DNA of 64,000 nt. Origin: Streptomyces sp. V1I1. Lineage in GTDB: Bacteria > Actinomycetota > Actinomycetes > Streptomycetales > Streptomycetaceae. The position numbers and the translations under genes were made by a program. Where the stretch lies: contig NZ_JAUSZH010000001.1 of assembly GCF_030817355.1 (NCBI RefSeq), positions 186,001-250,000 of the forward strand, read 5' to 3'. Under the pieces are notes generated by a model that searched no databases, was not told where the DNA came from, and saw only the letters and a program-made list of their open reading frames with translations. Below, piece after piece: positions 9,149-48,586 of this stretch (the first letter of the stretch is position 1; every line of letters starts with the position of its first letter).

Positions 9149-9661
9149 TTACCGTCGGCGGTCTCGTGACAGCATGCCCGGCTCGTATAGGCAGGCAAAG
9201 TCGAACACGTACCGCGGCGCTGAGCGCGGCTTCTTCCTCGTGGAAGCCGTCGTTCGGGGGCCGGGAGCGGAAGAGAGGTGCAGGTTGCCGATCCACACGG
9301 TGCCGGAGTGACGCTCCTGTACCGTCTCGCCTTGCTCGTGAAGCGCCTCGATGATCTCGGCTGCCGGCCACCCGAAGACGTCGACGCCCTGGAACGCAAC
9401 CGGGCATGCCACTCGCTCGTCGACCGGCCGCCGCGACAGCGAAATGATCGAAAGGCCGCCTCCGTCGGAGGCCGAAAGGGTGATCGAACATCCGGGCAAG
9501 TCGAAACCAACCGCCCAATCGGTCCCGCAGACGAAATCATCCGACAGCGCCGCATGCGGCGCCAGGACGCGACGGGCGTACTGCTCGGACATGCCGAAGA
9601 CCAGTTCGGGCAGCGGGCCGGGCAGCCGTACGCCCGTCGCAGGAAGCAGGTCGATGGTCAT
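9149..9661 (-). CDS. Hypothetical protein, conserved in Streptomyces
   Basis: A 170-residue protein with no signal peptide or membrane helix. It begins MTIDLLPATGVRLPGPLPEL and has alternating hydrophobic residues suggesting a mixed alpha/beta fold. The last third (SAPGPRTTASTRKKPR) is basic and low complexity. I do not recognise a domain. It ends 8 bases from the convergent CoiA-like remnant. ATG 9661 is the first start in the frame. Confidence 0.6.
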   Translation of the reverse strand: MTIDLLPATGVRLPGPLPELVFGMSEQYARRVLAPHAALSDDFVCGTDWAVGFDLPGCSITLSASDGGGLSIISLSRRPVDERVACPVAFQGVDVFGWPAAEIIEALHEQGETVQERHSGTVWIGNLHLSSAPGPRTTASTRKKPRSAPRYVFDFACLYEPGMLSRDRRR

Positions 9662-9860
9662 GCCGCCATGGTGGCAGCCACGGCCACCACCTGGGCACTG
9701 TCGTCTCAGCTGCCCGGCTCACGGGTGCCGCATCGCTGCATCGAACGCAGCCGGTCAGCCCCGTCGGATTGGTCTGGTATTACGGCAGGATGCGGGGACA
9801 GTCTGAGGACCGCTAAGTGCAGCCCGGGTCTGCCGGGTCGGCCAAGGTGAGGCGGATGTT

Positions 9861-10223
9861 GTGATCGACCACGTGGTGATCGGCGTCGGGGACGTAGCGA
9901 CGAGCAGGGCGTTCTACGAGCGTGCGTTGGCCCCTCTCGGAGTGGGCATCGTGCTCGACCTTCCGGGCTACGTCGGGTTCGGGGACCAGGGCATGCCATG
10001 GTTCTTCGTCGCAGCCCGGGAACCAACGCAGCGGGTGCACATCGCGTTCAGTGCGGCGGATCGGCCCACGGTCGATGCCTTCCACAGGGCCGCGCTGGAG
10101 GCCGGTGCGGTGGACAACGGCGCACCCGGCCCTCGCCCGGTCTACCACCAGCACTACTACGGAGCGTTCGTCTTCGACCCGGACGGCAACAACATCGAGG
10201 CCGTTTGCCACGTGCCCGGATGA
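9861..10223 (+). CDS. VOC/glyoxalase-superfamily protein
   Basis: A 120-residue single VOC domain, starting at GTG 9861 after AAGGTGAGG. The first beta strand (MIDHVVIGVGDVATSRAFYE) carries the usual metal-ligand histidine. The C-terminal strand FVFDPDGNNIEAVCH holds the typical glutamate. Length and motifs fit small lactoylglutathione-lyase-like proteins. Its substrate is unknown. It lacks the TCAGGWATCGAGAAGC promoter motif of the two VOC genes further on. Confidence 0.85.
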   Translation: MIDHVVIGVGDVATSRAFYERALAPLGVGIVLDLPGYVGFGDQGMPWFFVAAREPTQRVHIAFSAADRPTVDAFHRAALEAGAVDNGAPGPRPVYHQHYYGAFVFDPDGNNIEAVCHVPG

Positions 10224-10281
10224 CGCGCCGGATCCCCGACTCCAACATCCGCTGAGTGCGACTGTTCACAGCACGTACGGG

Positions 10282-10690
10282 TCAGACGAGTGCGGTGAGG
10301 CGGTCCTCGATGTAGGCGCGCTTCGCGTCTTCGTCTCGACGAGACGACAGGTAGCGCGACCACGCCTGCTGCTCATGAGCGGTAGGGCCGAGTTCCCACA
10401 CGCATTGCGTCGGCTTGAGTATCCCCTCCCGGGGATACGGCTCGAAGCCTCCTTCCTCCTTGAAGTGCAACGTCTGCCACATTTCGTTGGTACTGCGCCA
10501 GACACAGACGATGAGGAAGAAAATCTCCCCGGAGCGATGCAGGATCACAAACCCAGCTCGTTGCGGAGGTCCAGCCTCCCGGCGGCCGCTTCGGCGCGGA
10601 GGAACCCGCGCGCCTCTTCCCGGACTTCCGGTGCGACAGCCAGTTCCGTGTGGTGGACGTCGTACCACTTGAGGTACGCGTTACCTCGCC
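10282..10690 (-). pseudogene. Conserved hypothetical protein, one frameshift
   Basis: The front lies in one frame (YLKWYDVHHTELAVAPEVRE, EEARGFLRAEAAAGRLDLRN) and the back in another (VILHRSGEIFFLIVCVWRST, NEMWQTLHF, CVWELGPTAHEQQAWSRYL). The shift is near 10555. Streptomyces homologues read straight through from DELGF to VILHR. The function is unknown. The natural start is unclear; a strong hairpin sits where the leader should be. Confidence 0.65.
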
Positions 10691-39055: not shown

Positions 39056-42000
39056 TCACCCGGCGCTTCCTGGACTCGTGTAGCCGAGGGCTTTGAGGTC
39101 GGCGGAACGCTGCCCGGCCGGCTGCAGGTCGGCCCACGGGTGCAGTTCGGCTCCGGTCTCCTGTGTGATGGTGCGCTGCGGCGCATCGCCCCTGGCCGTC
39201 GGCGTGGCCGGGGTGGGGGTGGCGTCGGGGCCGAGGAGGCGATGAACGGCTTCGGGGCCGTGGTCGCGGCGGGCGGCGGCAAGTTTGTCGAGGTCCCAGA
39301 CCATGGTGCCGGTGATCGTGTTGCGGCCGCCGCGGCGCTGGATGGTGCCGCGGACCAGGAGCAGCCCGCTGTGGAAGATCGTGTGCGCGCAGGCGTCGTG
39401 GCTGTCTTCGAAGAAGGCCAGGTCGACCATGCCGGAGCCGTCTTCGAGGGTGACGAAGATGATCCGCTTGCCGCTTCGGATGGGCGGCGTCTGGGTGGAG
39501 GCCCGCACGCCCGCCACCAGAACGCGCCGGCCTGGGCGCAGTGCACGCAGGTGGGCGGCGTCGGTGGCACCGAGCTCGCGCAGCAGCTGATGGTGGTGGT
39601 CCATCAGATGCTGCGACACGTCGATGCCGAGGATCTGCAGTTCCGAGCTGAGGGCTTCGCGGCTGGTCATCTCCGGCAGCCCGGCTGCCTGCCCGGCCGC
39701 CTCGTCGCCGGTGTGGAGCGGGAGCTGCCCGTCATCGTGGCGGCGTCCGCGGTACTGGCGGTGGAGCTCGGCGATGTTCAGCAGCAGATCGCGGCGGGAG
39801 AGGGCGCCGCGCAGCGCGTCCAGGGCGCCGATGCTGACGAGGCGTTCGGCGGTCGGCCGGTTGGGGCGGGCGCGCTGCCACAGGTCAGACAGGGACGTGT
39901 AGGGCTGGCCGGCGGCGATCCGGGAAACCTCGCCCTCGTTGATGCCGCGAACGCCGGACAGGGACAGGCGCACTCCCCAGGTGCCGTCCGGGGCCTGTTC
40001 GATGGTGTGCGTGGGCTTGGAGTGGTTGATGTCGACGGGCAGCACCGCGACGTTGTGGCGGCGAGCGTCGGCCACGATGACCCTCTTGGGCCACATGCCC
40101 GGGTCGTGCTCGAGCAAGCCCGCATACAGGGCGGCTGGATGATGGGCCTTCAGCCAGGCCGACTGCAGGGCCGGGACGGCGAAGGCGACCGCATGGGCGC
40201 GGCAGAAGCCGTAGGCGCCAAACGCCTCCAGCGTGTCCCACACCTTGTCCAGCACGTCGGACGGGTAGCCGCGGGCGGAGGCCTCTTTGAGGAACCAGGC
40301 GCGGACCTCGGGCATGCGCTCCGTATCGCCGAGGGCGCGGCGGGCGATGTCGGCGAGCGCCCGGTCGCAGCCGGTCAGGGTGGCGACGATGTCGATGATC
40401 TGCTCGTGCCAGATCACCACCCCGTACGTATCGGACAGCACCGGTTCGAGATCGGAGTGCGGGTAGCTGGGGGCTTTGCCGTGGCGGGCGGCGATGTACT
40501 GCTCCGGCATGCCGCCGGCCACCGGGCCTGGCCGGAACAGGCTGATGTCGGCGACGACGTCCTGGACATTGCGCGGCTGCAGCCTGCTGAGCAGGTCCAT
40601 CTGTCCGGGCGATTCGAGCTGGAACAGGCCCAGGGTCTCGGAGGCCTGGATGAGTCTGAACGCGAAGAAATCATCCAGCGGCACCTGCCGCGGGTCATCC
40701 AGGTCGATGGTGTCGCCGGTGGTGCGCTGAATCTCGGTGGTGGCGTGCGCCATCGCGGACTGCATGCGCACCCCGAGCACATCCAGTTTGATGAGGCCGA
40801 GGTCTTCTACGTCTTCCTTGTCGGCCTGCACCATCGGATAGCCGCCCGGGGTCGGCTGCACCGGCAGCCGGTCCAGCAGCGAGGTGTTCGTGAGGATCAC
40901 GCCGCAGGGGTGCATAGCGATGCCGCGCGGCAGTTTGTCGAGGCCTTCGGCGAGCTCGAACATGAGCCGGAACGGCGCCGCCTCGCTTGCCAGTTGCTTC
41001 AGCTCCGGCAGTTCAGCGAGCGCGGCGGTGATGTCGCAGGCCCGGATGTGCGGAAACGATTTGGCGATCCGGTCCACATCCGATGGCGCGATGCCCAGTG
41101 CCAGCCCGGCGTCGCGCAGCGCGTGCCGTGCCCGGTACGTCTCCGGCATAGCGGTGACCGCGACCCGCTCCAGCCCGAACCGGTCGATGATCTTGTCGTA
41201 GACCTCCAGCCGACGTGCAGACTCCACGTCGATGTCGATGTCCGGCAGCGAGGCGCGCCGCACGGATAGAAAGCGCTCAAAGAGCAGCCGGTGATCCAAG
41301 GGGTTCGCGGTGGCGATCATCAACGCGTGATTGACCATGCTGCCCGCGCCGGAGCCACGGGCCGCGACCCGGATGCCCATCTCCCGTATATCGGCGACGA
41401 CTTGGGCGACAGTCAGGAAATAGGTGTCATAGCGGAGCTCGGCGATGACGGCGAGCTCCTCCTCCAGGCGCTGGAGGGCCGCAGTGTCACGGTCGAGGCC
41501 GCGGCGGACCATGCCTGCCTCGCACCGCTCACGCAGCAGCCGGGATGCCTCCCCCGCTCCCCCACCAGCGCCGACCACCTCCGGTTCGGGGAAATGGGGT
41601 GTGCCCAGGCCCAGGTCCGCGACCGGATCGAGCACGCACCGTGCGGCCGTCGCTTCGGTGTCGGCGAGCAGACGGCGGACCCGCCGCTCTCCCGTGCCCG
41701 CGGCTTCGGCGATACGGGAGGCGGCGTCGGTCATCGCGGCCGGGGACTTGAGCCAGCGCTCCCCGGTATCGAGCCGGTGACAGTCGATGGGGCGCAGCAG
41801 CCGGGCCGCGTCCAGGACATCGGCAAGCCGGTGCTGGCCAGGGTCGGCGTACCGGGTGGCATTGGTCAGCACGGCGGGGATGTGCGCCTGGTCGGCGAGT
41901 TGGAGGGTTCGGGCGGCCAGGCGCAGCGAGCCGGGCTCGGTGCCGGACAGGCCGTGCCACACTGCCTCGAGCCGCAGCCCGGTCCCGAAGATGTCGCGCC

Positions 42001-42508
42001 AGGGGCCAAGCAGCTGCTCAGCGATGTCCGGTCGGCCCGCGGACAGGGCACGGACCGGTTCGGAGACCGGCCCGAGCAGCGCGATCAGTCCCTCGCCCGC
42101 GTGCTCGCGCAGCGCCTCCCAGGACACCACGGGCGGCTCGCCGTGCGGCTGCTGGTGGGCGGCGGAGGTCAGGCGGCACAACCGCGCCCAGCCGGTCCGG
42201 TTCTCGGCGAGCAGCACCAACCGCAACGGCTGCTCGAGCACGTGGGCGCCGCCGCGCACCGGGGTACGGCGGCGCTGCGCACGGACAGAAGCCAGCGGAG
42301 CGACGGCCAGGTCGATGCCGAAGACTGGGCGGATGCCGTGCTCCATCGCCGCCTTCGCGAACCGCACGACGCCGGTGACGGTATCCCGGTCGGTCAGCGC
42401 CAGCGCGCTCATGCCGCGCTCGACTGCCCGCCGCACCAGGTCCTCGGGGTGGGAGGCCCCGTACCGGGCGGAGTAGCCGGACGCGACGTGCACGTGGGTA
42501 AAACCCAT
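39056..42508 (-). CDS. dnaE2: Error-prone DNA polymerase III alpha subunit DnaE2/ImuC
   Basis: About 1150 residues, intact. It begins with the PHP domain (FTHVHVASGYSARYGASHPE, RGMSALALTDRDTVTGVVRF). The polymerase active site LPDIDIDVES is near residue 420. Later come GVVIWHEQIIDIVATLTGCD and a C-terminal OB-fold (RIIFVTLEDGSGMVDLAFFE). DnaE2 with an ImuB-type partner carries out damage-induced mutagenesis in actinobacteria. ATG 42508 has GGAGG 6 bases upstream. A perfect LexA box lies 66 bases before the start. It overlaps the Y-family gene, so both are expressed together on SOS induction. Confidence 0.93.
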   Translation of the reverse strand: MGFTHVHVASGYSARYGASHPEDLVRRAVERGMSALALTDRDTVTGVVRFAKAAMEHGIRPVFGIDLAVAPLASVRAQRRRTPVRGGAHVLEQPLRLVLLAENRTGWARLCRLTSAAHQQPHGEPPVVSWEALREHAGEGLIALLGPVSEPVRALSAGRPDIAEQLLGPWRDIFGTGLRLEAVWHGLSGTEPGSLRLAARTLQLADQAHIPAVLTNATRYADPGQHRLADVLDAARLLRPIDCHRLDTGERWLKSPAAMTDAASRIAEAAGTGERRVRRLLADTEATAARCVLDPVADLGLGTPHFPEPEVVGAGGGAGEASRLLRERCEAGMVRRGLDRDTAALQRLEEELAVIAELRYDTYFLTVAQVVADIREMGIRVAARGSGAGSMVNHALMIATANPLDHRLLFERFLSVRRASLPDIDIDVESARRLEVYDKIIDRFGLERVAVTAMPETYRARHALRDAGLALGIAPSDVDRIAKSFPHIRACDITAALAELPELKQLASEAAPFRLMFELAEGLDKLPRGIAMHPCGVILTNTSLLDRLPVQPTPGGYPMVQADKEDVEDLGLIKLDVLGVRMQSAMAHATTEIQRTTGDTIDLDDPRQVPLDDFFAFRLIQASETLGLFQLESPGQMDLLSRLQPRNVQDVVADISLFRPGPVAGGMPEQYIAARHGKAPSYPHSDLEPVLSDTYGVVIWHEQIIDIVATLTGCDRALADIARRALGDTERMPEVRAWFLKEASARGYPSDVLDKVWDTLEAFGAYGFCRAHAVAFAVPALQSAWLKAHHPAALYAGLLEHDPGMWPKRVIVADARRHNVAVLPVDINHSKPTHTIEQAPDGTWGVRLSLSGVRGINEGEVSRIAAGQPYTSLSDLWQRARPNRPTAERLVSIGALDALRGALSRRDLLLNIAELHRQYRGRRHDDGQLPLHTGDEAAGQAAGLPEMTSREALSSELQILGIDVSQHLMDHHHQLLRELGATDAAHLRALRPGRRVLVAGVRASTQTPPIRSGKRIIFVTLEDGSGMVDLAFFEDSHDACAHTIFHSGLLLVRGTIQRRGGRNTITGTMVWDLDKLAAARRDHGPEAVHRLLGPDATPTPATPTARGDAPQRTITQETGAELHPWADLQPAGQRSADLKALGYTSPGSAG

Positions 42509-42573
42509 GCCGCGCCTCCGAACACCACAACCCCCTCTGTCTATTTTCGTGCGAAATACACCGAAAAGCGACT

Positions 42574-42589
42574 TCGAACCTCTGTTCGA
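42574..42589 (-). promoter_or_regulatory. LexA (SOS) box
   Basis: TCGAACCTCTGTTCGA is a perfect palindrome of the actinobacterial SOS consensus TCGAAC-N4-GTTCGA, 66 bases upstream of the dnaE2 start. LexA binding here would place the dnaE2-Y polymerase operon under damage control. Confidence 0.9.
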
Positions 42590-42686
42590 GAACAGTAACG
42601 CGTGATGCAGTGCGCGGCGACCGTGGCGCACGAGACCACATCGATGAGGGAAACCCCCACCCGCGCGACGTTGGCGCAGCCCGGCG

Positions 42687-43708
42687 TCATGATTCCGCCG
42701 CTGCTGGCCCCCGATCAGCGTCGGTAGGTCCTTCCGTGCCGTAGAGCGGGACGTCGTCGGGGGTGATGTCGATGCGGAGCCGGTGCAGGTTGACGGGGTG
42801 GCGCCAGCGACCGTGATCAACCGCGGTGTCACCGTGAAACTCACCCACGAGCAGGGGTGCGACGGGAGTGAACCGGAGCAGTTCGCGACTGCCCCAGTGC
42901 GAACTGAATTGCACGTCGTGCCAGGGGTGGTCCGCGCCCGGGGTGCGAGCAAGCCGCCACCGAGCTCCGCACGAAGCCGCGGCGACAAGGGGGTACTCCG
43001 GGCGACCAGCAGGAAATGCCCGTCGCTGGTGTAGCGGCCGAGCAGGATCGTCTCAGGCCGGGTGAGACTGCCGGTGACCGCGCCGACGATCGCCTCGGCA
43101 GAGTTGCGGGTGCGGTACTTCAGCCAACCGCGTCGGCCGGGTTGACAGGTCTGGTCGACACCCTTGATGACCAGGCCCTCCACCCCTACCGCGGTCCACT
43201 CGGTCAGCCACTCCTGGGCTGTGGCGCGACTGGTCGTCACGGCGTGAGCGCCCAGGGAGCCTGAAGGCCCTGCCCCTGGAACAGCGAACTCGAGGCTGCG
43301 CGGCGCTCGGCGTAGGACCAGCTGAGCAACTCCGTGCCGACATGCCGCAGCAGATCGAAGGCGACCAGATGGGCCGGTCGCGCCCGGGCCCTCTGGGCGA
43401 CCGCTCGCGACCGGCGGTTCATCCGCTGCTGCAGCGCCGAGAAGTCCTGTCGGCCACCCGGTAGATCACGGCGTCGCCAACGTCCTCGCCGAGTGCCCAG
43501 CGGCGTCAGCGACCTCCGGAAACGCCGCGGTGAGGTCCCGCCCGTTGCGGGACTGCAGAAACACCGCGCCATCAGCCCCGGCGAACACGAACAGCCGGAA
43601 GCCGTCGTACTTCGGCTCGAACACCGTGCCGCCCGGCACGGCGGCGGGCCCCGGCAGACGCGGCACGGATCGGGCCAGCATCGGCTCCACTGGGAACAAG
43701 ACTCGCAT
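42687..43708 (-). pseudogene. ATP-dependent DNA ligase, nearly full length but frameshifted
   Basis: ATG 43708 begins MRVLFPVEPMLARSVPRLPG, with motif I FEPKYDGFRLFVFAGADG. The remainder continues in other frames: DFSALQQRMNRRSRAVAQRA, AFDLLRHVGTELLSWSYAER, GVEGLVIKGVDQTCQPG (motif IV), GWLKYRTRNSAEAIVGAVTG (motif V) and FSSHWGSRELLRFTPVAPLL. Shifts lie near 43480, 43250 and 42920. Length (about 340 codons) equals the intact gene at 47585. It diverges from the coiled-coil remnant at 43776. The long frame running from here into dnaE2 is accidental. Confidence 0.88.
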
Positions 43709-43760
43709 AAGGCAATTACCCGAGCAAAGAGTGCAATCTCCTCTCTTAGCCAGAGTGAAG
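43709..43760. promoter_or_regulatory. Divergent promoter block, second copy
   Basis: Nearly the same as 844-896: AAGGCAATTACCCG, AAAGAGTGCAA and AGTGAAGGG in the same order and spacing. On the minus strand GGGTAATTGCC again lies a few bases before the ligase start. Confidence 0.5.
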
Positions 43761-43775
43761 GGTGCTGGGTGACCT

Positions 43776-44051
43776 GTGTATCTGCAGACCATCGCGGACG
43801 AGCTGTACGGGCTGTACCCGGCCGACTTCATCGCGGCCAGAAACGAGCATGCGGCTGCAGCGAGAAAGGCGGGCGACCGCAAGCTGGCCGGGGATATCCA
43901 GTCCCTGCGGCGCCCGACCCTCTCGGCGTGGGCCAGCAACCAGCTCGTGCGCCGACAGCCGGACCAGGTCCGACCGCGGATCAGCCGGACCAGGTCCGAC
44001 CGCGGATCAGACGGCGATGACCGCCTCCATGAGGCATCGGGCGGCCGGTGA
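43776..44051 (+). pseudogene. Ligase-paired coiled-coil protein, truncated copy
   Basis: The first 70 codons match the protein at 911 (ADELYGLYPADFIAARNEHA, SLRRPTLSAWASNQLVRRQP). After QPDQVRPRIS a 26-base tandem duplication repeats the last codons out of phase, and the rest of the frame is unrelated. The coiled-coil half is lost. Confidence 0.85.
43957..44008. repeat. 26-base perfect tandem duplication
   Basis: The 26 bases from 43957 to 43982 (AGCCGGACCAGG... ending GCGGATC) are repeated exactly at 43983-44008. The copy lies at the break point of the coiled-coil gene. Confidence 0.85.
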
Positions 44052-44450
44052 GCCGGGCCCAGTGGCGCAGAGCCGGTGTGCTTGGGCAGGCGCGAGCCGG
44101 CGTATCCGCCTTCGGCGCGCATGAAAGCGGTGCCGATCCTCGGGTCGAGGCCGGTGCCGGTGCCGGCGAGAACGTCGTCGATGTCGGCGCCGGTGCCTCG
44201 CACAGGTGATCAGATCGCCGACGAAGCTGATCTTGGGGGCCAGGAACGCGTTGCTGGCGTACTTGACCACTTCCGCGGAGGTGAGATCGGTGACCACCAG
44301 CGGCGCGTCGATACCTCGGTACAGCTCCCGCACCAGCGACAGGGAGGGCTGCGTCAGCAAGGCCCACGACCAGGCGTGCGGGGCGGCGCCAGTCCCCGAT
44401 CGCCTCTCCCTGGTTGGGGAACTCCGGACTGCATACCGTCCGAGCCCACC
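44016..44450 (-). pseudogene. UDP-glucose/GDP-mannose dehydrogenase fragment
   Basis: Pieces in shifting frames: EFPNQGEAIGDWRRPARLVV, LYRGIDAPLVVTDLTSAEVV, KYASNAFLAPKISFVGDLIT and GADIDDVLAGTGTGLDPRIG. This is the central part of UDP-glucose 6-dehydrogenase. The catalytic cysteine segment (normally GGSCLPKD) reads AGSRLPKHT, so the nucleophile is lost. Both ends are missing. Confidence 0.75.
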
Positions 44451-44608
44451 CCGGATCGGCCGGACGGAGCGATCGTCGCCACCACCGCACCGACGGCTTG
44501 GGAAGGCCAGCCGGTCCGAGTACTGGACCTGACTCCCTGCAGAACCTCCCGGGGGACCAGTTCGTTGAGCCGCTCGTCCTGCTCCCCCAATGATCAGAAG
44601 GACATGTC

Positions 44609-45016
44609 GTGAGCAGTGGTATCCCAGGAGTGGAAGACAGCTGTATCAGCGCATTCCAGGAGCTGAAGAGCAAGCGGGAGATCAACACAGTGATCTACCG
44701 GCTCAGTGACAATCTGGAGACCGTCATCCTCGACTTCAAGGGGAACCTGACGCACGACGAACTACTGGAGTCTCTGCCAGCCGCCGAGCCTCGGTTTGTC
44801 GTCTACGACCTGGTCTTCGCGACGTCGGACGGGAGCCGGAGGGAGATGATTGTGATGATCTCCTGGTCCCCCGAGACCACGGAGATCAAGCAGAGGATGG
44901 TGCACTCCTCCAGCTACGACACACTCCGGAACATGCTCGACGGTGTCCAGGTCTACGTACAGGCCACGGAGCTGTCCGACGTGGAGTACGACGCACTCGT
45001 ATCCCGGGCTTCTTGA
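44609..45016 (+). CDS. ADF/cofilin-like actin-depolymerising-factor homologue
   Basis: A 135-residue protein made of one complete ADF-H domain. Residue order follows yeast cofilin: SGIPGVEDSCISAFQELK (3-20), RFVVYDLVFATSDGSRREM (62-80), then SWSPETTEIKQRMVHSSSY (85-103) in the long actin-binding helix region, and LDGVQVYVQATELSDVEYDA (110-129). In eukaryotic cofilin the W(S)P-D/E-x-A-x-x-K/R-x-K/R-M stretch binds actin; here the basic residues are kept in IKQRM. GTG 44609 has AGAAGGA 8 bases upstream. By hand count GC is about 59 percent over 44641-45000, well below its neighbours, suggesting foreign origin. No actin gene adjoins. A cytosolic filament-binding role is inference. Confidence 0.88.
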   Translation: MSSGIPGVEDSCISAFQELKSKREINTVIYRLSDNLETVILDFKGNLTHDELLESLPAAEPRFVVYDLVFATSDGSRREMIVMISWSPETTEIKQRMVHSSSYDTLRNMLDGVQVYVQATELSDVEYDALVSRAS

Positions 45017-45322
45017 CCCACCCACAGCCTCCTTGACCGAGGGGTTCGAGAACAGCAGCTCGTTCACGGCAACCCGCCGCCTACGGCCCATTCACAACCA
45101 GCGGTCTCACGCAGGCCGCCACTCCTACCAGCACTGGCGTCGGAGGCCGCTCCTGCCCTGGCGGCGGATCTGCCCTGGTATACCTGCCGCTCTACGTGCC
45201 CTGACCGAACACCGCACCGAGCCCGCCGGGCAGGGCCCTGAGCGCGGACATCGCGGCCGCCGCCCTGCGCGGCATACGTCCCCGCACCAAGCTACTGGAA
45301 CGAGGATGACTCGGTCATGGAC
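45017..45322. other. Stretch without a recognised gene
   Basis: Only one short segment has coding flavour (SADIAAAALRGIRPRTKLLE near 45235-45300). No complete frame, promoter motif or repeat is evident. Confidence 0.35.
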
Positions 45323-46333
45323 TCACCATGCCAGCGGCGTATGGTCGGCCGGCACTGCCTCCTCGGGCGTGACCGGCTTGGGCGACGTGCCGTCGCCGAA
45401 CGGCCGCCCGCCCAGCGCTGCGCGATCGTGCGGCTCGAGCCAGTTCGTCAGGTCCGGGCCAGCCGGCACGATCCTGGTCGGGTTGATGTCGCGGTGCACC
45501 GTGTAGTAGTGCCGCTTGATGTGGTCGAAGTCGACCGTGTCACCGAAGCCGGGCGTCTGGAACAGGTCCCGCGTGTACGCCCACAGCACCGGCATCTCGG
45601 AAAGCTTGTGCCGGTTGCATTTGAAGTGGCCGTGGTAGACGGCGTCGAAGCGCACGAGCGAGGTGAACAGCCGCACGTCCGCCTCGGTGATCGTGTCGCC
45701 GACAAGATAGCGGGACCGTACAAGCCGCTTGGAGAGCCACTCGAGCCGGGCGAACAGGCGCTCGTACGCCTCGGCGTACGACTCCTGCGACCCGGCGAAC
45801 CCGGCCCGGTAGACGCCGTTGTTCACGTCCTTGTAGACCACCTCGTTCACCGCGTCGATCTCCGACCGCAGCGCGGGCGGGTAGAGCGCCGGCGCTCCGT
45901 CGCGGTGGTACAGCATCCACTCCAGCGACATGTCAATCGTGATCTGCGGGAAGTGGTTGGTCACCACCTTGCCCGTTGGCACATCGACGATCGCCGGCAC
46001 CGTGATGCCCCGGTCGTAGCCCGGGTCGCGGCGGAAGTACGCCTGCTGGAGCCGCTCGATCCCGAGCACCGGGTCGCGGCCGCCCGGGTCGAGGTCGAAC
46101 GTCCAGCTGCGCTCGTCGTGGATGGGCCCGGCGACGGCCATCGGCAGCGCCCTCTCCAGGCCGAGGAGCCGCCGTACGATCACCGCCCGGCTTGCCCACG
46201 GACAGGCGCGACTGACCACCAGCCGGTAGCGGCCGGGCTCCACAGGAAAGCCGTCGCGTCCGTCGGTGGTGATCCGGGTGGTGATGTACCGGCTGTCGCG
46301 CGAGTACTTCCCGCCGGGACTCACATAGCTCAC
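45323..46333 (-). CDS. Glutathionyl-hydroquinone-reductase-like (ECM4/YqjG) protein
   Basis: A 336-residue glutathione-transferase-fold protein of the Xi class. The catalytic Cys44 lies in SRACPWASRAVIVRRLLGLE. The family segments ERLQQAYFRRDPGYDRGITV, VPAIVDVPTGKVVTNHF and YLVGDTITEADVRLFTSLVR are present, and the end is LYRRDINPTRIVPAGPDL-like. Actinomycetes lack glutathione and use mycothiol, so the physiological thiol is probably different. GTG 46333 is the start. The gene is intact between remnants. Confidence 0.9.
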   Translation of the reverse strand: MSYVSPGGKYSRDSRYITTRITTDGRDGFPVEPGRYRLVVSRACPWASRAVIVRRLLGLERALPMAVAGPIHDERSWTFDLDPGGRDPVLGIERLQQAYFRRDPGYDRGITVPAIVDVPTGKVVTNHFPQITIDMSLEWMLYHRDGAPALYPPALRSEIDAVNEVVYKDVNNGVYRAGFAGSQESYAEAYERLFARLEWLSKRLVRSRYLVGDTITEADVRLFTSLVRFDAVYHGHFKCNRHKLSEMPVLWAYTRDLFQTPGFGDTVDFDHIKRHYYTVHRDINPTRIVPAGPDLTNWLEPHDRAALGGRPFGDGTSPKPVTPEEAVPADHTPLAW

Positions 46334-46619
46334 ACCCTCGCCCTACCCAGAACAACCGCGGCGAACGCGGCGGCCAGCCTCGAGTGCGTAGTGCGTGGGC
46401 ATCGCGCTGCGGTCGAGAACGCCTCGACCGACGAAGCTCGCCGACTGATCGATGCGGCTCCTGCTGTGGCTGAGCGGTTCAGGTGACCTGTCACGATCAG
46501 ACTGCTTCGGCTTCGAGGAGTTGACCAGCACACCACGCCGCCCTCTCGGAAGTCGAACGTGGCGTTTCTCAGGGACGTAGAACGCTTTCGGTGCCCACGA
46601 CGGCGGCGCGGGCGACGGT
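46334..46619. other. Stretch with no recognised gene
   Basis: No convincing frame on either strand; minus-strand frames are long only because of base composition. Confidence 0.35.
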
Positions 46620-46995
46620 GCTGGCCGGCGGTTCGACCCGAAGCGCCCGGCTCCTGGCTGGTCAACCTCTCGCACGTCGACCTGGCGCGCGTGCTGATCG
46701 GCTAGGAGTGGCAGCAGCTCGAAAGGGATCTGCTGCCCAGCCCGTTCACGCCGAAGGGTGAGACGCCCCAAGGTCCGGCCTGGTACGCGACCGTCGCGCA
46801 CGCGGTGGAGCTCGGCTACGACCTCGCACCGGCCGAGGCGTGAGTGCGGTACGAGAACGGCCGCTACCTGGACGGCTGGTACAACCGTCTGCACGGCGCC
46901 TACGTGGCGACGATGGCCGACGTGGGCGTCACCGGCGACCTGTCGCCGGAGGACTTCCTCGCGGCCATGGACGGCTACCGGCAGCGCGATGAGCA
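46620..46995 (+). pseudogene. Telomere-associated (Tap-like) protein remnant
   Basis: One frame with two in-frame stops (TAG near 46704, TGA near 46843) reads GSWLVNLSHVDLARVLIG, LLPSPFTPKGETPQGPAWYA, TVAHAVELGYDLAPAEA and YNRLHGAYVATMADVGVTGD. From memory this matches the middle of Streptomyces telomere-associated protein Tap, which recruits terminal protein Tpg to the ends of linear replicons. Both ends of the gene are absent. If right, it points to past contact with a linear-replicon end. Confidence 0.5.
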
Positions 46996-47104
46996 GCTCC
47001 GCCACGTCACGCCGCCGAGCGGAGGTTCGGGCCCCTTCCACCTGAGCGTTCCCGCGGTGAGGGTGGAACTTCCGTGTAGCGTCAGGGACAGCTGTCCTGG
47101 TTCT

Positions 47105-47400
47105 GAGGTACCGGTCGCCCGTGAGCGTGCGCACTGGCCGTGCCGCAGGTCGGCAGCGCCCCGACGCCAAGCTCAGTCGTTCTGCGCAGCCACCAGCACG
47201 GTTTCTTCTGCCCGATACATTCGGTACCAGAGGCCATGACCTCTCGCGCGGTCGTCACGTTATCTACCTCTTTCGCACAGCGGCCGGTGAACCAGCCCCT
47301 GAGCATCCCCACCCCGGCCTTTCCTCCCTTGTACGCCTGGCCCAACGTCCCTGCCGCAAGCCACGACCCTGATGCCCGCGACGGGCACCGTAGCCGCTCG
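47105..47400 (-). pseudogene. CBS-domain gene, 5' end and leader only
   Basis: On the minus strand this repeats the start and about 130 bases of leader of the CBS gene at 51593. The product would read VTTAREVMASGTECIGQKKP, then TTELGVGALPTCGTAS, before breaking off. The shared leader can be read as GSWLAAGTLGQAYKG... in both copies. It is an inverted partial duplicate about 4.3 kb away. Confidence 0.75.
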
Positions 47401-47433
47401 TAGGCTTGAACAGGGGGCGGTTGGAGGTACGTC

Positions 47434-47490
47434 ATGCGACACGCCTTGGCCAACGGCGCGATCAGCTTCGGGCTTGTGACTCGCCCGCGA
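47434..47490 (+). pseudogene. Ku, N-terminal stub
   Basis: ATG 47434 follows TTGGAGGTACGTC. The first codons read MRHALANGAISFGLVT, the typical Ku start (MRSIWNGAISFGLVS). Similarity ends after about 16 codons. It stands just upstream of the intact ligase, so this was once a ku-ligase pair. Confidence 0.65.
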
Positions 47491-47584
47491 CGGAGAGCCG
47501 CGCATGACAGCTGCAGTCCGGCATTGCGGTTCACGGTCCTCCGCCGATCCAGACCCCCCTATCCATAGCCAAGGGGATGTCACC

Positions 47585-48586
47585 GTGACGATCACTCCCC
47601 CCGTGGCGCCGATGCTCGCTCTCGCTGTCCCGCAACTGCCCGGGCCCGCAGCGTTGCCCGGCGGCACGGTGTTCGAGCCGAAGTACGACGGCTACCGGAT
47701 GCTCGTCTTCGCGCACGCCGGTCACGTGTATCTGCAGTCGCGGAACCTGCGCGAACTGACGTCCCTGTTCCCGGAGATCGCCGACGCAGCGGCAGCCTTG
47801 TGCGAGGACGTCGTACTGGACGGCGAGGCCGTGATCCACCCGGGCGGCCGACTGGACTTCACCGCCCTGCAGAAGCGGATGGGCCGCCGGCCGGGCACCG
47901 TCGCGCAGCTGGCCGCGAAGCAGCCCGCACACTTCATCGCCTTCGATCTCCTCGAGCTCGAAGGCACCCAGATGTTCAACTGGCCCTACCGGGAGCGGCG
48001 CGCCGCACTCGAGTTCTTGTTTCAGGGACACGGGCTGCACGCCCCGTGGGCTCTCACCCCTCCCACTACCGATCACCGACAGGCAGAGCGGTGGCTTCAA
48101 AAACGGGCAGGCACTGGGGTGGAAGGGGTCGTGGCCAAAGGGGCCGACCAGCCGTATCTGCCCGGGCGCCGCGGCTGGCGCAAGATCCGCGCCCGGAACA
48201 CTGCGGAGGCCATCATCGGAGCTGTTACCGGTCTCTTCACCCATCCCACCACGCTGCTGCTCGGCCGCTACACCTCCAGTGGTGGCCTGCGCCTGGTCGC
48301 CCGCAGCATGCCGCTGTCGCCTCCCCTTCAGCGCGAGCTCGGTCGCCTGCTGTCCCCCGCCGGCCGCGAGCATCCCTGGCAGGACGTGCGCATCTCTTCC
48401 CAAGGGGGCAGCCGAGAGCCACTGTCCTTCACCTGCGTGGCACCGCATTTCGTCGCCGAGTTCCTCGGCGAAACCGCTATCGGCGCCGGCAGGTGGCGCC
48501 ATCCGGTACAGGTGCAGCGGATCAGGACCGATCTCGCGCCCCAAGACGTGCCCGCCGCCGACGAGAACCCGGAACCCGCGCCATGA
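47585..48586 (+). CDS. ATP-dependent DNA ligase (LigC/LigD-ligase-domain type)
   Basis: A 333-residue enzyme, intact. Motif I EPKYDGYRML has the adenylated lysine at position 33. Motif III is VVLDGEAVIHPGGRLDF, IIIa FIAFDLLELEG, IV GVEGVVAKGADQPYLPG and V GWRKIRARNTAEAIIGAVTG. A C-terminal OB-fold follows. GTG 47585 has AAGGGGA 8 bases upstream. Such stand-alone ligases seal breaks brought together by Ku. It is the only complete copy of three in the window. The ku stub just upstream no longer encodes a partner. Confidence 0.93.
   Translation: MTITPPVAPMLALAVPQLPGPAALPGGTVFEPKYDGYRMLVFAHAGHVYLQSRNLRELTSLFPEIADAAAALCEDVVLDGEAVIHPGGRLDFTALQKRMGRRPGTVAQLAAKQPAHFIAFDLLELEGTQMFNWPYRERRAALEFLFQGHGLHAPWALTPPTTDHRQAERWLQKRAGTGVEGVVAKGADQPYLPGRRGWRKIRARNTAEAIIGAVTGLFTHPTTLLLGRYTSSGGLRLVARSMPLSPPLQRELGRLLSPAGREHPWQDVRISSQGGSREPLSFTCVAPHFVAEFLGETAIGAGRWRHPVQVQRIRTDLAPQDVPAADENPEPAP

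Follow-up and report, generated by a model that had tools for sequence, protein, structure and literature searches.

What is a eukaryote-type actin-disassembly protein doing in a bacterium? To our knowledge, core actin-regulating genes are usually held to be eukaryote-only, and yet a sequence-only reading of a 64,000-nucleotide stretch of the soil bacterium Streptomyces sp. V1I1 (bases 186001–250000 of an 8.27 Mb contig, one of the two that make up the genome; hereafter the window) proposed that it encodes a protein of the ADF/cofilin family in an accessory region. Our analysis supports the proposal that a genuine ADF/cofilin gene lies in an accessory region of Streptomyces, and the questions we address here are how it relates to other cofilins, which of its surfaces are under constraint, and what it may do in its host.

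The Gene and Its Surroundings

The features of the locus are collected in Table 1. The open reading frame proposed by the sequence-only reading does run from its GTG start to a stop codon at 45014–45016, with no internal stops, and is preceded by the proper ribosome-binding site that was claimed for it. The GC content, put at about 59% and below that of the neighbors, is 0.588 (0.57, 0.38, and 0.82 at the three codon positions, all lower than the usual Streptomyces values of about 0.70, 0.50, and 0.92), and the gene shows as a dip in a 500-base profile (0.600–0.652 over the gene vs 0.650–0.748 elsewhere, for segments starting at 40250–48500).

Table 1. Features of the ADF/Cofilin Locus (Positions in the Window)
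Feature	Position	Strand	Description and basis
Open reading frame with front of ATP-dependent DNA ligase and possible UDP-glucose dehydrogenase piece	43466–44203	−	Pfam
97-base remnant like the end of a Streptomyces linear-plasmid gene	44443–44539		Nucleotide matches
Promoter-like element GAAC-N17-CGTTGA	44542–44568	+	Pattern common to other ADF upstreams
Ribosome-binding site AGAAGGA	44596–44602	+	6 nt before GTG start of ADF/cofilin gene; sequence
ADF/cofilin gene	44609–45016	+	135 aa, GTG start; PF00241, AlphaFold2 model, solved-structure matches
Codons 32–52, part of conserved segment (G45, T48, H49, D50, E51)	44702–44764	+	Column entropies, 42 clade A/B sequences
Long helix, codons 93–108	44885–44932	+	K94, R96, M97 correspond to yeast cofilin R96, K98, M99

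The neighboring genes had been described as decayed, and this holds on the left side, where one open reading frame combines a match to ATP-dependent DNA ligase (PF01068, 29.8 bits at residues 174–235, cut-off 26.2) with a weak one to UDP-glucose dehydrogenase that stays below threshold (PF00984, 20.7 bits, cut-off 25.4). The pieces of this second ligase (43237–44203, minus strand) run into a long open reading frame at 39056–43240 that by eye is DNA polymerase-like, and an intact ATP-dependent DNA ligase gene lies about 4 kb away on the opposite strand (47504–48586, plus strand). We also observe a 26-base unit in two exact head-to-tail copies (43956–44007) between the decayed genes. The 97-base remnant is matched at 77–86% in 17 of 20 among the matches listed (60 records match the 44300–45200 query), and in SAP1 it corresponds to about the last 97 bases of the hypothetical gene SAVERM_RS00120; this resemblance of the upstream remnant to the end of a linear-plasmid gene fits a plasmid origin of the stretch.

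It is extremely improbable that the gene is a product of contamination or misassembly, a concern that the sequence-only reading had raised: nothing indicates it in an assembly that is 99.71% complete and 0.2% contaminated, the gene lies inside the 8.27 Mb contig, and relatives are found in many separate Streptomyces assemblies.

Family, Fold, and Distribution

The Pfam profile Cofilin_ADF (PF00241) matches residues 12–132 of the window protein with an E-value of 7.7e-33 (113.3 bits, gathering cut-off 22.4), far beyond chance and in agreement with the family originally proposed; none of the NCBIfam models matches the protein. Structure prediction, suggested as a check by the sequence-only reading, likewise agrees with cofilin, as the AlphaFold2 model (pLDDT 92.7, pTM 0.86) has a predicted ADF-H fold over the whole chain, and its matches among solved structures include actophorin (7sog) and Streptomyces griseoflavus cofilin (5ivu), the nearest being true cofilins.

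The gene is sparsely distributed. In a sample of 392 Streptomyces genomes, PF00241 matched 17, among them that of the window, which carries a single copy at 0.23 Mb; the 19 places found in this sample contain no internal stops, and one of them is partial (G078, profile positions 15–97). In a phylum-wide sample of 396 genomes, whose listed rows include 11 others of the genus, a match was found in the window's own genome and nowhere else. Relatives occur in 6 of 72,556 plasmid records, all of them linear, from Streptomyces, and 0.2 to 1.05 Mb long, and of the five PF00241 places on contigs of at least 8 Mb, four lie no more than 270 kb from a contig end and one lies at 1.07 Mb. Carriage by phages was considered and rejected (0 matches in 50,697 phage records), as was carriage on viral contigs, where none of five pattern stretches is a relative. 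A protein search listed 78 proteins, and those with an organism name are from Streptomyces, except for one from the plant Cuscuta campestris; several entries are without an organism name. We propose that the gene, whose homology to cofilins is evident, would have been acquired from a eukaryotic donor, probably long ago. It now persists in a minority of Streptomyces, where it sits on linear plasmids or chromosome arms as a lone accessory gene with a promoter-like element of its own.

Types of Streptomyces Cofilin

The window protein belongs to a type that we call clade A, with the signature NTVIYRL ... GNLTHDEL. Clade B, whose members are 35–39% identical to the window protein, nests in clade A, and a more canonical Streptomyces group comprises 5ivu, L035, and L046, with L036 lying near fungal cofilins. 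The sequence-only reading had suggested a tree to see whether bacterial copies form one clade. In a tree rooted with six eukaryotic sequences, clades A and B form one group of 48 sequences (SH-aLRT 96.4, UFBoot 94), and the clade of the window protein, its relative P0003, and 37 others is well supported (97.2/100), whereas little support (65.4/66) is given to the node that splits the window pair from these 37. Streptomyces nevertheless has a second type that is more canonical, and the AU test does not separate one transfer from several, since a forced single Streptomyces group is not rejected (p = 0.587 for the unconstrained tree, and 0.465 and 0.398 with the Streptomyces sequences forced together without and with L036, respectively). 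The protein of L036 matches yeast cofilin with an E-value of 1.8e-44 and, given its position near the fungi on the tree, perhaps represents a separate transfer. The canonical genes lie at 9370–9783 (minus strand) in L036, 10083–10511 (plus strand) in L035, and 9411–9836 (minus strand) in L046.

Actin-Binding Face and Near-Invariant Residues

In yeast cofilin, actin-site roles fall to R96, K98, M99, K105, and D106 of the long helix and to R80, K82, E134, R135, and R138 of the filament site. The window protein keeps R96, K98, M99, D106, R80, and R135 (as K94, R96, M97, D104, R78, and R133, respectively), and differs at K105, K82, and E134 (Y103, M80, and S132) and at R138, which has no counterpart. 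Membership in the family does not require K105, D106, or the filament-site residues. The earlier statement that the actin-binding helix retains its basic residues is thus only partly right: it holds for the segment around R96, K98, and M99, but not for K105, nor, outside the helix, for K82.

The triad K/R94-K/R96-M97 is found in 12 of the 101 bacterial sequences in the tree and is absent in the other 89; 5ivu, which is outside the 101, also has it, with KMKQKM at the helix site. Thinning 98 clade A/B sequences at 80% identity left 42, over which we calculated column entropies. The mean for all positions is 1.56 bits, compared to 2.26 bits for seven helix-face positions that had been taken from yeast cofilin in advance; random sets of seven positions get to the latter value in 1.3% of draws. 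Widening the set to fourteen actin-site positions gives a mean of 2.03 bits (1.5% of draws). In five eukaryotic rows, the same seven helix positions average 0.28 bits vs 1.00 overall, and in the twelve triad-keeping sequences that make up the window's subgroup, itself partly chosen by the triad, the helix averages 0.46 bits vs 0.71. Judging from these alignments, most of the bacterial copies compared do not conserve the actin-binding face, which suggests that many Streptomyces copies have lost the surface that grips actin and may now do another job, while the conserved helix of the window's subgroup favors the view that the window's own copy has retained a role of the actin type.

Constraint is instead seen elsewhere in the protein. 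In addition to the residues of the conserved segment listed in Table 1, the near-invariant set takes in R23, N26, T27, and R62, and eight of these positions (with G45 and without R23) average 0.34 bits over the 42 sequences, a value that is a description rather than a test because the positions were picked for their conservation. N26 and T27 are absent from all five eukaryotic rows. The role of the near-invariant residues may, however, be structural. Pairwise dN/dS values, obtained by a simple method and possibly inflated by codon bias, range from 0.20 to 0.67 in 16 of 17 pairs (0.42–0.55 for pairs with the window gene), with a value of 0.99 for the pair L035–L046. The model of a clade B member (pLDDT 89.3) also matches cofilins, such that the fold appears to be kept after loss of the actin face.

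Upstream Element

The promoter-like element of the window recurs in the form [GC]AAC-N16/17-CGTTG[AG], a pattern written after the alignment was seen, at −65 to −68 from the start in 9 of 31 ADF upstreams (the window, L001, L003, L004, L005, L037, L047, L051, and L052), all of them in clade A. Block shuffles of the upstreams gave a mean of 0.05 and at most 2 loci with the element in 1000 runs. Its recurrence may partly stem from shared ancestry. By eye, there is little alignment among the upstreams of the window, L037, and L051 outside the element and the ribosome-binding site.

The element resembles the promoters read by sigma factors of the extracytoplasmic type. A SigB-type promoter, for which the consensus is GNNT-N14-16-GGGTAY, can be set aside, as 0 of 31 ADF upstreams match, and no sigma-70 promoter or terminator patterns were found. 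Judged by its consensus, sigma-BldN as the factor reading the element gains no support from the chaplin genes: among six chaplin loci examined in the window's own genome (9 matches), two have a loose match, one of them at a plausible distance. Genome-wide, the related form SNAAC-N16/17-CGTTGA occurs 36 times vs 16 for a reversed control, and the window's own site misses this stricter form.

Genomic Company

We compared 33 ADF loci with 12 arm and 6 core stretches from six ADF-negative genomes, using 22 queries, sixteen of which were taken as stress types, and counting per 20 kb. The ADF loci carry 2.48 stress types per 20 kb, compared to 0.5 in the arm controls and 0 in the core controls, these counts including STAS and ATPase queries that came in pairs, so that those types are partly counted twice. 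When the eight loci that supplied queries are left out, the remaining 25 still carry 1.96 (p = 0.014 vs arms and 0.0013 vs all controls). No stress type is present in more than 9 of the 33 loci, and none of the sixteen is present in 9 of the 33. Conserved gene neighbors were rejected on the basis of Pfam, since among the families of the 150 nearest of 187 neighbor genes, none is present in more than 5. The window itself contributes PRC-barrel, CBS, ligase, SRPBCC, and GlsB types.

Among the single types, a small CBM48-like protein stands out most, being found in 9 of 33 loci vs 0 of 18 controls (p = 0.013, uncorrected), all nine in clade B. This CBM48-like (“isoamylase early set”) gene lies within 10 kb of the clade B cofilin gene in L009, L012, L014, L041–L043, and L048–L050. 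Separately, L045 holds a 264-residue open frame (9756–10550, minus strand) in which a STAS (anti-sigma antagonist) domain is joined to a divergent ADF domain; no second such fusion was found among 61 genomes around L045, in which ADF matches occur in L045’s own genome and one other.

Candidate Partners and Delivery

Matches to the actin profile PF00022 are present in 34 of 34 genomes examined, scoring at most 45.5 bits. In the window's own genome, this search finds MreB/Mbl only and no eukaryote-type actin, the match consisting of two segments of one frame whose protein is MreB/Mbl by Pfam (516.7 bits). We rejected a eukaryote-type actin partner in the higher-scoring loci as well, since the two read out of the eight kept with higher PF00022 scores, L053 and L060, are again MreB/Mbl (448.9 and 450.9 bits). 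Gelsolin and profilin profiles gave 0 matches, as did their controls. The genes in L053 (994–2106, minus strand) and L060 (1450–2499, plus strand) are extra members of the MreB/Mbl family that outscore the usual one on the actin family, and in some Streptomyces about 3 kb separate such an extra gene from a further actin-family match.

Turning to delivery, inspection by eye shows no signal peptide on the window protein. Release through a contractile injection system was rejected, as the sheath family PF04984 is equally frequent in genomes with ADF (12 of 17) and without it (12 of 17), and the sheath match of the window's own genome is at 7.64 Mb, 7.4 Mb from the ADF gene.

What the Gene May Do

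The explanation we consider best, which we hold tentatively and at somewhat less than even confidence, is that of an imported cofilin that in most of the family binds a bacterial partner inside the cell and does not sever actin. Such a protein would serve as a small protein-binding domain within a stress or developmental program, and would, in most of the family, contact its partner through the region of R23, N26–T27, G45, T48–E51, and R62. As the constraint on the helix is gone in most of the family while other residues are near-invariant, binding of a bacterial partner rather than severing of actin would be its likely act, and since the window's copy sits on an earlier branch with helix-conserving members, it may itself keep actin-type binding. 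In favor of this explanation are the family and fold, the eroded actin face on a retained fold, the dN/dS values, the upstream element, the stress-type company, the STAS fusion, MreB/Mbl as the one actin-family protein found in the window's own genome, and the missing link to contractile injection. Against it count the conserved helix of the window's subgroup, the choice of the near-invariant residues after the fact, the occurrence of the STAS fusion in a single case, the 9 loci that lack all sixteen stress types, the dN/dS of 0.42–0.55 in window pairs and of 0.99 for L035–L046, and the restriction of the upstream element to clade A. It is possible, but on balance somewhat doubtful, that the whole history is that of a eukaryotic actin-disassembly protein rebuilt into a non-actin signaling or stress module, in which the actin face was lost stepwise, other residues were fixed, a promoter was gained and, once, a STAS domain, and of which the window's copy would be a surviving intermediate with part of the old face.

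The retention of K/R94, K/R96, and M97 on a conserved helix in the window's copy and its early-branch relatives, the KMKQKM of 5ivu at the same place, and the true cofilins among the nearest solved folds are all in line with a regulator aimed at eukaryotes, released or delivered to disassemble the actin of amoebae, fungi, insects, or plants. We nevertheless regard this as unlikely, in view of the lack of a signal peptide visible by eye, the equal numbers and distance of sheath genes, the replacement of yeast K105 and K82, and the absence of the triad from most bacterial sequences. Between an assault on foreign actin and an internal, stress-linked binding role, we judge the latter to be the more likely, because no signal peptide is seen by eye, there is no link to an injection system, and in most of the family the constraint lies elsewhere. 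A further possibility is that the protein regulates the cell's own MreB/Mbl filaments during aerial growth or sporulation, as every one of the 34 genomes has an actin-family match and the three read are MreB/Mbl by Pfam. However, MreB is present in every genome examined, ADF in 17 of 392, and over the whole A/B family the actin-facing part is what varies, making this quite unlikely.

Finally, linear plasmids and chromosome arms could be carrying the gene along as a slowly decaying passenger that does little or nothing. Its patchy presence, the dN/dS of pairs with the window gene, the decayed neighbors, the residues lost at the actin face, and the partial copy in G078 would fit this, but the frames without internal stops at all 19 places, the near-invariant residues, the recurring upstream element, and dN/dS values down to 0.20 argue against it, and a mere passenger is in our view also an unlikely description.

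Comparison with Known Cofilins

Actophorin (7sog, 1ahq) and yeast cofilin (1cfy) are among the best solved-structure matches of the window protein and align with it over nearly its whole length. Unlike the eukaryotic cofilins, however, the window's copy resides in a genome in which no eukaryote-type actin was found, and it departs from yeast cofilin at the four actin-site positions described above. Streptomyces offers a natural series, from canonical cofilins (5ivu, L035, L036, and L046) through window-like proteins to those without the actin face, with the predicted fold kept in the members modeled, and this makes it testable how an imported cytoskeletal protein changes its job without its partner in the cell.

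Cofilins from bacteria had in themselves been recorded before. A 2009 paper gives cofilin one table line, with the entries “A homolog only in Streptomyces” among prokaryotes and “probable HGT” (PMC2651865), and states no function. The closest relatives of the window protein carry the NCBI name “actin-binding ADF family protein” in Streptomyces (P0003, for example, is 95% identical), a database name with no function attached. The entry 5ivu, released in 2017 as “Crystal Structure of Streptomyces griseoflavus Cofilin”, is 30% identical to the window protein, has SSKD where the latter has SSYD, and belongs to the other branch, with L035 and L046 (SH-aLRT 96.9, UFBoot 100). Given these records, what is new here is the variant and not the kind.
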